The notes under the pieces were generated by a model. It saw only the letters and a list, made by a program, of their open reading frames with translations, had not been told where the DNA came from and did no database searches. The position numbers were made by a program, and so were the translations under genes. From NCBI GenBank assembly GCA_016841825.1, contig JAENYK010000026.1:1-32005 (forward strand): a stretch of 32,005 nucleotides of DNA, in the 5' to 3' direction. Origin of the DNA: Halothermothrix sp. Its GTDB lineage: Bacteria > Bacillota > Halanaerobiia > DY22613. Below are positions 7,539 to 16,255 of this stretch, one piece after another. How positions within the stretch are numbered: the first letter of the stretch is position 1; the number at the start of each line of letters is the position of its first letter.

Positions 7539-8460
7539 TCGTTTAATTGAAAAGATTAATCTGAAGAATAGTTGTGTCTGCGTGGGTTTAGACCCCCGTT
7601 TTGTCCAGATTCCCGATCAGGTGAAAAATCCGATAAAGAAAGCGATGGGTGAGACTAAAGAGAGTCTGGCTCAGGTTCTGGTGGAATTCAATCGGGGTAT
7701 TTTGGAAACAGTAGAACCTTATGTGCCTGTGGTCAAATTTCAGATCAGTTTTTATGAACAATATGGTTTGAGTGGTTTACAGGCATTGATTGAATCGTCT
7801 AAAATTGCACGGAAAATAGGTTTAGAGATTATCATCGATGCCAAAAGAAATGACATTGCTTCAACAGCAACCGCTTACGCTAATGGTTATCTGGGTAAAG
7901 TAGATGTATGGGGTCAGAAAGAACCGATTTTTGACGTAGATAGCATTACTATCAATCCTTACCTGGGAAGTGATGGAATAAACCCATTTATTCAGGTTGG
8001 TAGGGAGAATGAGAAAGGTTTATGGGTTTTACTCAAGACGTCCAATCCTTCTTCAGGTGAATTACAGGATTTATCTTTGAATACAGGGGAACTGGTTTAT
8101 GAAAGGTTGGCTTTACAGTTACAGGATCTGGGGAATCAATGGTGTGGTGAGAGTGGTTATTCTAATCTTGGAATGGTAGTTGGTGCCACTTATCCAGAAG
8201 CAGCAGCAAAAGTACGTAAGATGCTGCCCACTACTTTCTTTCTCATTCCTGGCTATGGAGCTCAGGGAGCTGGGGCGGCTGAGTTGAAACCATTTTTTAA
8301 CTCTGATGGACTTGGTGGAATTGTTAACTCTTCCAGAGGGATTATCTTTGCAGCTGCTCAGTCAGGTGAAGATTTTAAGTCGGCAGCGCGTAGAGCTGTA
8401 ATTGCGATGAGAGATGAGATAAATCAATTACGAACCGATAGGTCAGGTCGTCTATTTTAA
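7525..8460 (+). CDS. pyrF: Orotidine-5'-phosphate decarboxylase, long (type 2) form
   Basis: Decarboxylates OMP to UMP, the last step of the pathway. The ATG at 7525 (311 aa) is chosen because GGAGTGG lies about 5 nt upstream; an in-frame ATG at 7492 would overlap pyrC further. The active-site signature is DAKRND (105-110), preceded by GLDPRF (21-26) and VVKFQISFYEQYG. At about 310 aa it belongs to the long subfamily found in mycobacteria, myxobacteria and some clostridia, not the about 240-aa Bacillus/E. coli type. A 165-nt gap separates it from pyrK. Confidence 0.93.
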   Translation: MQAIDRLIEKINLKNSCVCVGLDPRFVQIPDQVKNPIKKAMGETKESLAQVLVEFNRGILETVEPYVPVVKFQISFYEQYGLSGLQALIESSKIARKIGLEIIIDAKRNDIASTATAYANGYLGKVDVWGQKEPIFDVDSITINPYLGSDGINPFIQVGRENEKGLWVLLKTSNPSSGELQDLSLNTGELVYERLALQLQDLGNQWCGESGYSNLGMVVGATYPEAAAKVRKMLPTTFFLIPGYGAQGAGAAELKPFFNSDGLGGIVNSSRGIIFAAAQSGEDFKSAARRAVIAMRDEINQLRTDRSGRLF

Positions 8461-8484
8461 GTTAAAATTAATGAAATTAGCTGA

Positions 8485-8594
8485 GAAATCTTGATGTACC
8501 AGGGATTTCATGATTTAGAGTCAGTCATTCTCTGCCTTTGAGTTTCCGAATATTTTTGAGATAGAAATTAATCTAAATTGTGAAATCCTTTTTT
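8485..8594 (+). promoter_or_regulatory. Possible attenuator-like structure before pyrK
   Basis: GGATTTCA (8503-8510) can pair either with GAAATC upstream (8485-8490) or with TGAAATCC downstream (8581-8588), and the latter is followed directly by T6. Mutually exclusive pairings with a T tract on the distal one are what an attenuator looks like. The distal hairpin has a loop of about 70 nt, unusually long, and no PyrR loop (CNGNGA in the right context) is visible. Confidence 0.35.
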
Positions 8595-8625
8595 AAAAAA
8601 TATTGGTGTAAGGGGGAAGTACTTT

Positions 8626-9423
8626 ATGTCTCAAATTTGTAGATCCCAGATCATAGAGGTTTTGCATTTAAATGATAGATATAGTTGTTTGCAAATTTAT
8701 GCTCCCCAGATAGCAGAGACAGCCCAGGCTGGACAGTTTGTGAATCTGCAAGTGGGAGAAGATGGAAGTATTGATCCTCTACTGAAACGCCCATTCAGTA
8801 TTCATCGAATTGATCGGGAATTAGGGATGATTTATTTATTAATTAAGGTAGTAGGAGTGGGTACTGAAAAACTTCAAAAGATGAAAGCTGGTCAGGGGTT
8901 GGAGATGATCGGTCCATTGGGACATGGTTTTAGACTTCAAAATACGGGGAAAGCTTTGCTGGTTGCAGGCGGTATCGGAATCGCACCTCTGTACGAACTG
9001 GCAGTTCAACTGAGTGAAAGTGGTGTTGAAGTGACTGTGCTTCTGGGAGTTACCGATCAGAAGGATCTAATCCTCAGTACGGTAATGGAAGAATATGATC
9101 CACAAATTATTATGGTCAATCCCGGAGTTAGCAGTCAGCGGAAGGGATTAGTTACTGAATTAGCTGCAGAGTGTCTGTCATCTAAAGAATATGATCAGAT
9201 TTATGTCTGTGGACCAGAGCCAATGTTAAAAGCTCTGCACCAACAGCTGGGAAGTAATCTTATAAATTCTCAATTTTCACTGGAGGAGAGAATGGGCTGT
9301 GGTGTTGGGTTATGCTTCTCTTGTGTCTGTAAGGTTAAGCAAGATGACGGAACAGGGGAATGGAAACATGAACGCGTTTGTACCTGTGGCCCTGTCTTTA
9401 TGGGAAATGAGGTGGTCTTTTGA
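8626..9423 (+). CDS. pyrK: Dihydroorotate dehydrogenase electron transfer subunit
   Basis: FAD and [2Fe-2S] subunit that passes electrons from the PyrD subunit to NAD+. 265 aa. FAD motif RPFSI (55-59), nucleotide-binding GGIGIAPL (115-122), and C-terminal iron-sulfur ligands C225-X4-C230-X2-C233 and C252 in VCTCGPVF. The last motif has an extra cysteine where many PyrK proteins read CTDGPVF. Start ATG 8626 follows AAGGGGGAAG. The stop overlaps the pyrD start (TGATG), so the two subunits are translated together. Confidence 0.95.
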   Translation: MSQICRSQIIEVLHLNDRYSCLQIYAPQIAETAQAGQFVNLQVGEDGSIDPLLKRPFSIHRIDRELGMIYLLIKVVGVGTEKLQKMKAGQGLEMIGPLGHGFRLQNTGKALLVAGGIGIAPLYELAVQLSESGVEVTVLLGVTDQKDLILSTVMEEYDPQIIMVNPGVSSQRKGLVTELAAECLSSKEYDQIYVCGPEPMLKALHQQLGSNLINSQFSLEERMGCGVGLCFSCVCKVKQDDGTGEWKHERVCTCGPVFMGNEVVF

Positions 9424-13689: not shown

Positions 13690-13718
13690 TACTTTCCAAA
13701 AGAGATACAGGATAGTTT

Positions 13719-13764
13719 CCCTCCTTTAGTTCAAACTATACTTAGAACTAAAAATTAAGGAGGG
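13719..13764 (+). promoter_or_regulatory. Hairpin sequestering the ribosome binding site of the acidic repeat gene
   Basis: CCCTCCTT (13719-13726) is exactly complementary to AAGGAGGG (13757-13764), which is the Shine-Dalgarno sequence for the TTG start at 13772. An inner stem TAGTTC/GAACTA (13727-13732/13745-13750) closes a 12-nt loop, with a 6-nt bulge AAAATT on the 3' side. If the transcript starts upstream (for example in the DUF401 gene), translation would be blocked while the hairpin is folded. A TATACT at 13737-13742 in the loop could be a -10 box, and a transcript from it would escape the hairpin; its -35 is poor. Confidence 0.65.
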
Positions 13765-13771
13765 ATTCTTC

Positions 13772-14749
13772 TTGTCTACATTATGGTGGATTATCGGATT
13801 AGCAATTGTTGGTGCAATCGTCTATAGCCTGTTATCACGGCAAAATGTTGAAGATGCGGATGACGAAGGGATGGTTAGACTTACTAATGAAGAATACGGT
13901 GAGGAGCTTAGTCGGCATATAATTAAAGATAATGATGAAGAGTATGCAAAGGAAACCACGTCACAGATGCGTCATGACAAAGAAGAAGATACCACCTCCA
14001 GCCCTCTGGGAAGTGTGGATGCCGCTATGGGAAGGGCACGTCGAGACCGTGGGAGGATTGCCGAAAAAGATAAGGAGTATGGTGAGGAATTGGATTATGG
14101 TAATGCTGATGAAGAGTATGGTATTGAATTAAATCCGGGCAGAACAGATGATGAGTATGAGCGAATTTTTCAGTTTGATGTTGATGAAGAATATGGGAAG
14201 GAGTATGATCCAGCAAGATGGGGTGAAGGAGGCCGGACTCTAAAGAATAATCCGAAACCCAAAAAAGATCTTGATCATGAACGAGATATTAGGGAACATG
14301 CAATACTCATGGGTCATGAAAAGGAAGAGACCGCAGATGAGATTAGTGAGTATGGAACAGGGGATTTTCGGTATCAGTTGACTACGGCAGATGAAGAATC
14401 TTCTAATGCCTCGGATCCCGAATTAGGAGAATATAGTCTGAATTTTACTCAGGCTGATGCAGAATTTGGTGGTGATCTGGATCTGATTGATGATATTCGA
14501 AAACATGCCAATCTTATGGGTTATGAAGAGGAAGAGTTCGGGAACAAGTTCAGAGGTGATTTAAAAAATCATCATCGATCAATCGGTTCGAGAAGAATAA
14601 AATTAGAAGATGATGATGACGATGATGATCTGCCAATGGCTTCAAAAACCCGGATGACGGGCTTTGCAGATCATCCTTTTATGATGGATGATGATGTATC
14701 CAGGAGAAAGGAAGAACGGCGGAACAGAATGAAAAAAAGAAATCATTGA
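13772..14749 (+). CDS. Membrane-anchored acidic protein with EYG-type repeats, function unknown
   Basis: 325 aa; TTG start at 13772, 7 nt after a perfect AAGGAGGG. One membrane helix (about 4-21), then a long, highly charged and probably disordered domain. I do not recognise the family. A short motif, (D/E)E(Y/F)G-x-x-(L/F/Y) with variants, recurs about ten times, with aromatic residues at 42, 58, 103, 116, 129, 141, 194, 221, 232 and 256; four copies (103-141) are spaced 12-13 residues apart. A second motif occurs twice: DIREHAILMGHEKEE (172-186) and DIRKHANLMGYEEEE (241-255). Then a run of eight acidic residues (279-286) and a basic tail RRKEERRNRMKKRNH. This layout suggests a tethered multivalent binding platform, which is inference only. 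Confidence 0.8.
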   Translation: MSTLWWIIGLAIVGAIVYSLLSRQNVEDADDEGMVRLTNEEYGEELSRHIIKDNDEEYAKETTSQMRHDKEEDTTSSPLGSVDAAMGRARRDRGRIAEKDKEYGEELDYGNADEEYGIELNPGRTDDEYERIFQFDVDEEYGKEYDPARWGEGGRTLKNNPKPKKDLDHERDIREHAILMGHEKEETADEISEYGTGDFRYQLTTADEESSNASDPELGEYSLNFTQADAEFGGDLDLIDDIRKHANLMGYEEEEFGNKFRGDLKNHHRSIGSRRIKLEDDDDDDDLPMASKTRMTGFADHPFMMDDDVSRRKEERRNRMKKRNH

Positions 14750-14754
14750 ATCAA

Positions 14755-14787
14755 AAGAAGACCCTCTTTTTACAGGAGGGTCTTCTT
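14755..14787. terminator. Bidirectional terminator between convergent genes
   Basis: Twelve-bp perfect stem AAGAAGACCCTC (14755-14766) with GAGGGTCTTCTT (14776-14787), 9-nt loop. It lies 5 nt past the acidic repeat gene and about 100 nt past the 3' end of the minus-strand deacetylase gene. On the minus strand the stem is followed by a TTTT run. Confidence 0.85.
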
Positions 14788-14887: not shown

Positions 14888-16255
14888 TTAATTTTGACTC
14901 CAGTGGATGTACTCATCAGCGACCTGGTCCTGCAAATAAACATGGTGGAACTGTTTGCTGGCACAGTATTTTGCATATTTTTCTCTGGCTGTTTTCTGAC
15001 ACTCTTTGCATGATAGACGCGGCAGGATAACAGCAGCAATAGGCACCTGATGACCTGTTCGTCCTAAATGGTGACCTACAGATTCAATAAAAAGATGTCC
15101 CTGGCAGTTATCGGTTGAACAGAGTTTGACGATCTCTTTCTGATCTTCAGAGATGTAGTCGGTATCGTAAAATATTTGTTTTTCGCGATAATAGTAATCA
15201 TCTTCAAGATGTTGAAACTCATTGGAAACCAACCGCTGACGATTTTCCCAATAATACCTGACCTGCTCGGTTACCTTTTTGATCCGGTCCAAAACTTTGA
15301 CCGTCTGGAGCGAACGGGAGGGAGTGTAATCAGGTTCTCTGAGGTGTGAGTAATCTAAACCAGCCATTGCGAGAATTATCCCCACATTGACATAAGGTAA
15401 AGCATCTTCTATACTATATCCTCCCTGGAGAACAGCGAGTTGTGGATCAAGTTTCTGGTTTAATCTGGCATAACCCTGAGCTGTGATACTCATGTTGGTT
15501 AAGGGGTCACTGTAGTGATTGTCTTGACCAGCTGAATTGATAATAATATCTGGTTTAAATTCCTGAACAATCGGTAAGATCAACTGATCAATTACATATA
15601 AATATCCTTCATCGGTTGTATAGGGAGGAAGCGGTATATTTAGAGTCATTCCCATCGCTCCGGGTCCGCCAAGTTCCCAACTAAACCCTGTTCCGGGATA
15701 AAGGGTACGCCCATCCTGATGAATACTGATGTGTAAGACATGGGGATCATGATAATAAATATCTTGAGTGCCATCAGCGTGATGGGCATCAGTATCTATG
15801 AATGCTATCTTCAGATTAGGATTATAGGTAGTCCTTAGCCATTCAACCATAATAGCTTCATTGTTGATATTGCAAAATCCCCGATTTCCATGAACTACTC
15901 GAAAAGCATGATGACCAGGTGGCCGAACCAGGGCAAAAGCTTTATCGACTAATCCATCAAGATATTTTTTGGCAGCTGTGATCGCTCCACCTGCTGAAAT
16001 TAGATGAGATGTGGTGGCTAAGTTAGTAACATTGGGAACACAGATATGTACTCTGGCTACATCTTTTTCGGTAGCCAGTTCAGGTTTAAACTCCTGAATG
16101 CCTGGGAGGTCTAATAAACCTTCTTCCAAAATTTGATCGTGAGTGTATAATAATCGTTCTTCACGTTCAGGATGGTCTGGGGTGATCGCCCAATCATAAG
16201 CAGGGAAGAAGACTAGGCCTAAGCGATTTTTGATTTGAGGTAAAGTGTTCTTCAA
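14888..16255 (-). CDS. Histone-deacetylase-fold amidohydrolase with cysteine-containing C-terminal domain
   Basis: 455 aa. Residues about 12-305 form an arginase/deacetylase domain: RPPGHHA (H115, H116), DTDAHHADGT (zinc ligands D156, H158), HISIHQDGRTLYPGTG, SAGQDNH (third ligand D245) and GGY (catalytic Y280). All key residues are present, so it should be an active zinc amidohydrolase; bacterial relatives deacetylate acetylpolyamines or acyl-lysines. The last 150 residues are an extra domain with C379-X4-C384 and C416-X2-C419, resembling a zinc ribbon, plus C431. The start is TTG at 16255, overlapping the upstream stop by 4 nt (TTGA), with GGAGGG 7-8 nt before it. No ATG occurs early in the frame. 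It is coupled to the hydantoinase-like gene. Confidence 0.85.
   Translation of the reverse strand: MKNTLPQIKNRLGLVFFPAYDWAITPDHPEREERLLYTHDQILEEGLLDLPGIQEFKPELATEKDVARVHICVPNVTNLATTSHLISAGGAITAAKKYLDGLVDKAFALVRPPGHHAFRVVHGNRGFCNINNEAIMVEWLRTTYNPNLKIAFIDTDAHHADGTQDIYYHDPHVLHISIHQDGRTLYPGTGFSWELGGPGAMGMTLNIPLPPYTTDEGYLYVIDQLILPIVQEFKPDIIINSAGQDNHYSDPLTNMSITAQGYARLNQKLDPQLAVLQGGYSIEDALPYVNVGIILAMAGLDYSHLREPDYTPSRSLQTVKVLDRIKKVTEQVRYYWENRQRLVSNEFQHLEDDYYYREKQIFYDTDYISEDQKEIVKLCSTDNCQGHLFIESVGHHLGRTGHQVPIAAVILPRLSCKECQKTAREKYAKYCASKQFHHVYLQDQVADEYIHWSQN

Follow-up and report, generated by a model that had tools for sequence, protein, structure and literature searches.

An orphan membrane-anchored acidic protein with repeated E-[YF]-G motifs in Halothermothrix sp.

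Orphan genes are common, and most, lacking relatives, are inseparable from noise. The question raised here by a 325-residue open reading frame of Halothermothrix sp. is whether it is a gene at all and, if so, whether the short acidic-aromatic motif repeated along its product is there for a reason. The frame lies at positions 13,772–14,749 (+) of the 32,005-nucleotide stretch of DNA that was analysed (the window), with a TTG start sitting directly after AAGGAGGG and a TGA stop, exactly the limits given in the original prediction. Its synonymous codon choice scores +23.0 bits in frame and fits that of the neighbouring genes, with all five other frames negative, while G+C by codon position (0.57, 0.36, 0.32) resembles that of the neighbours (0.53, 0.35, 0.33). 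On these two grounds, 13,772–14,749 is a real gene. It begins 82 bases downstream of the gene for a DUF401 membrane protein and is convergent with a histone-deacetylase-family gene.

A hairpin at 13,718–13,765 (+; −18.4 kcal/mol, z −3.7, or −3.15 in a longer context) carries the ribosome-binding site, AAGGAGGG, in its 3′ arm. This structure could control translation of the orphan gene or terminate DUF401 transcription. No sigma-70-type promoter was recognised upstream of the orphan gene; a TATACT hexamer at 13,737–13,742 lacks a good −35 element, and it is speculation that a transcript started there would be without the first hairpin arm. Rfam families were absent from the window. Downstream, a perfect 12-bp inverted repeat at 14,755–14,787 (+) forms a terminator-like stem between the convergent genes.

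The protein comprises an N-terminal membrane helix (residues 3–24; 13,778–13,843, +), approximately 265 acidic residues that are predicted to be disordered, and a basic C-terminal tail (residues 292–325; 14,645–14,746, +) with 11 Lys/Arg and six Asp/Glu, in agreement with the layout originally proposed from the sequence. AlphaFold2, run on the single sequence, models the membrane helix as the sole confident helix (pLDDT 81–84), with weak, low-confidence helices at residues 237–248, 253–269, and 309–322, the last within the tail. The mean pLDDT is 47 and the pTM 0.16, values to be read knowing that single-sequence AlphaFold2 often models poorly and that disorder does not follow from a low pLDDT. 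A charge-hydropathy value of 0.341, against a boundary of 0.459, also places the chain beyond the helix in the disordered range, so that both approaches give the same answer to the disorder prediction proposed at the outset. With one membrane helix and a chain for which the single-sequence model predicts no fold, the product has the predicted features of a membrane-tethered disordered multivalent motif protein. The helix is not followed by an Ala-x-Ala cleavage site, and the charges flanking it are ambiguous as to the side of the membrane on which the chain lies.

Beyond the membrane helix, the chain holds seven copies of E[YF]G, against a mean of 0.24 in shuffled sequences, and the longer pattern [DE]E[YF]G-x-x-[LFY] occurs four times against a mean of 0.008 (20,000 shuffles). 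A broader pattern fitted post hoc, after inspection of the sequence, E[YF][GAS]x[EDNK][LTYF], is found eight times (shuffle mean 0.036). Including degenerate copies there are ten sites, with Glu at positions 41, 57, 102, 115, 128, 140, 193, 220, 231, and 255, which together with the excess over shuffles bears out the ten or so EYG-type repeats first reported. Copies 1–2 (NEEYGEEL, DEEYAKET) occupy residues 39–59 (13,886–13,948, +), and copies 3–6 (DKEYGEEL, DEEYGIEL, DDEYERIF, DEEYGKEY) residues 100–145 (14,069–14,209, +). These are followed by the degenerate copies 7–9 (ISEYGTGD, LGEYSLNF, DAEFGGDL; 14,342–14,473, +) and by copy 10 (EEEFGNKF; residues 253–260; 14,528–14,551, +). The 12–13-residue spacing that had been described holds for four copies only, where Glu102, Glu115, Glu128, and Glu140 are separated by 13, 13, and 12 residues (within residues 102–141); the remaining gaps are 16, 45, 53, 27, 11, and 24. 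An offset of 13 has no significance as an overall period; the local segment at this offset reaches a score of 55, with the 99th percentile of shuffles at 57.

The ten copies were compared with one another residue by residue. Recent slippage or duplication would leave far more identical codons between copies than were observed. Among 141 pairs of the same amino acid, the codon is identical in 81, where 78.9 are expected for fully randomised synonymous sites under the codon usage of the window genes; as copies were recognised by their motif, decayed copies are not counted in this test. Since same-codon pairs are no commoner than chance, the comparison shows the copies to be old (or convergent) and kept at the protein level. 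Glu is retained in 10 of 10 copies, Tyr or Phe in 10 of 10, and Gly in 7 of 10. Judged by this internal comparison, the motif is repeated beyond chance and maintained as protein, which argues both against a recent expansion of the DNA and against neutral filler.

The same result bears on a reading in which the acidic chain acts unspecifically as a polyelectrolyte, through cation binding or as an osmotic or surface brush, the aromatic motif being incidental. The composition suits such a role (84 Asp/Glu in 325 residues, pI 4.6, and an Asp-rich run near residues 280–286), as does the ambiguous topology, which would allow the chain to lie outside the cell. Bulk charge does not need E-[YF]-G, however, and the motif is in clear excess with old copies, so this explanation is considered unlikely.

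A second element, DIR-x-HA-x-LMG, is also repeated. The 21-residue block is found at residues 166–186 (14,267–14,329, +) and 235–255 (14,474–14,536, +) by self-comparison, with a pattern search also identifying both blocks; the second coincides with low-confidence AlphaFold2 helices. Its separation, 69 residues, is the strongest internal offset in the protein, and the segment score of 66 exceeds the shuffle 99th percentile of 57, so the duplication claimed originally is genuine. The pattern occurs only twice among 398 genomes, both times in the orphan gene.

Searches for relatives were uniformly negative. Pfam (E up to 10), NCBIfam, and PDB sequences gave no usable match, and tblastn against 50,697 phage records and searches of plasmid and viral-contig collections gave none. 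PHROG 32505, a family of unknown function, matched weakly at residues 6–90 (E = 0.008), a region spanning just the membrane helix and the acidic start of the chain, and this match is probably compositional. The view that no described family has this layout is thus upheld in Pfam, NCBIfam, PHROGs, and the PDB, and a literature search for orphan acidic repeat proteins anchored in the membrane turned up no paper. The search with protein and motif that had been proposed yielded no orthologue in 59 genomes of the class, 398 of the phylum, or two scans of an 84,980-species collection, in which only chance matches appeared; motif-profile searches and a double-motif DNA pattern likewise found no relative. 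The scans detect close relatives only, and the genome search covers no genome of the genus besides the source genome, so that an orthologue that has diverged might have gone unnoticed.

Several candidates were rejected on inspection. The 84,980-species scan returned 56 apparent relatives, of which the three that were read are Streptomyces or Kitasatospora short-chain dehydrogenases matching through KEYDPARW, a stretch common by chance; the remaining matches involve the same stretch. The weak matches that the class and phylum yielded, in G005 and G059, are solute-binding proteins, and motif-profile matches in G022 and G088 appear, by eye, to be SfsA- and GreA-like housekeeping proteins. The double-motif DNA pattern matched in eight other class genomes; seven of these matches are readable in the protein frame, and all are unrelated proteins, which by eye we take to be a hemerythrin-like protein, an arginyl-tRNA synthetase, an amidohydrolase, and others.

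The one same-family genome (G001) retains both flanks of the locus: the pyr genes and DUF401 (71% identical) on one side, and deacetylase, hydantoinase-like, MazG, and EF-G genes on the other. The EYG gene is absent from G001 between DUF401 and the deacetylase. Because it is missing at a conserved site, the orphan gene is dispensable within the family; its absence fits a loss in G001 as well as a gain in the source genome. The corresponding interval in G001 (L037, 6603–18323) spans approximately 11.7 kb with nucleotidyltransferase, transposase-like, and hypothetical genes, and is possibly a local insertion hotspot. Two further features of the region were observed. In the pyr cluster, pyrF is followed directly by pyrK at 8460–8626; in G001, carA and carB separate these two genes (L038, 3299–7838). 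The histone-deacetylase-family protein (14,888–16,255, −) has a C-terminal extension past its Pfam domain with several Cys pairs (CSTDNC, CKEC), which is present in G001 too.

The lack of a relative in any searched collection, the absence from G001 at a conserved site, and the low-complexity composition would all fit a fast-evolving orphan or filler with no specific role, the remnant of an older repeat expansion. Yet the frame is intact and follows host codon usage, and the motif persists between copies whose synonymous sites are saturated. Such an origin is accordingly held to be improbable, on a par with the polyelectrolyte.

The motif also invites comparison with the sites cut by the germination protease GPR, which have Glu at P1, a hydrophobic residue at P1′, a small residue at P2′, and Glu at P4′. 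If E-[YF]-[GA]-x-E-[LT] mimicked such sites, the protein could be a spore protein degraded at germination. The source genome, that of a spore-forming bacterium, encodes GPR (two pieces of one 333-residue frame, E 2.6e-85) and small acid-soluble spore proteins (SASPs) with the site E-V-A-Q-E-L, and motif copy 2, E-Y-A-K-E-T, is similar to the gamma-SASP site E-F-A-S-E-T. The likeness to alpha/beta (PF00269) and gamma SASPs is therefore a repeated short Glu-aromatic/hydrophobic-small-x-Glu site in a host with both components. In contrast to SASPs, the orphan protein is large and membrane-anchored, has no match to the SASP alpha/beta model (PF00269; Pfam, E up to 10), and carries Gly rather than Ala at P2′, Ala being found in a single copy. 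The sigma-G-type promoter GAATA-N17-CACATAATA, which lies upstream of one SASP gene in the source genome (G000) and two in G001, was not found before the orphan gene. A role as a GPR substrate is therefore very unlikely. The SASP upstream regions themselves (L066, L054, L065) share this near-identical spore-type promoter and a common CTAGTSAAGATTGTCAGAATA block around the −35 element.

The reading we prefer, at a probability of roughly 0.4, is that the gene encodes a lineage-specific, membrane-tethered, disordered acidic protein whose E-[YF]-G motifs are repeated weak docking sites for one partner. Each of the ten copies would act as a short linear motif, and the membrane helix would anchor the array, gathering numerous partner molecules at the membrane. 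Both DIR-x-HA-x-LMG blocks may fold into short helices upon contact with a second surface, and the basic tail could contact lipid or nucleic acid. Docking, multivalency, and the role of the tail are what we infer from sequence, as is disorder, with the model, for the chain. The repeated docking sites of the original prediction gain indirect support from copies that are synonymously saturated and still retain E-[YF]-G; the irregular spacing, the gene-free locus of G001, and the want of an orthologue for comparison count against them. A bolder version would make E-[YF]-G a bacterial docking motif not yet described and the protein a genus-specific membrane scaffold that clusters its partner through ten copies, with translation switched by the hairpin hiding the ribosome-binding site; it appears a long shot.

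Bacteria have, as a general kind, disordered proteins that are tethered to the membrane and carry repeated linear motifs, and the orphan protein shares their layout of one membrane helix, a disordered chain, a repeated short motif, and a basic end. It differs in that E-[YF]-G and DIR-x-HA-x-LMG match no described family (Pfam, NCBIfam, PDB); it is ordinary as a kind and unusual in its motif. Here the internal copies substitute for orthologues, and synonymous saturation alongside a kept motif suggests function from within one genome. Should the motif turn out to bind a partner, a new linear motif would have been identified in bacteria.
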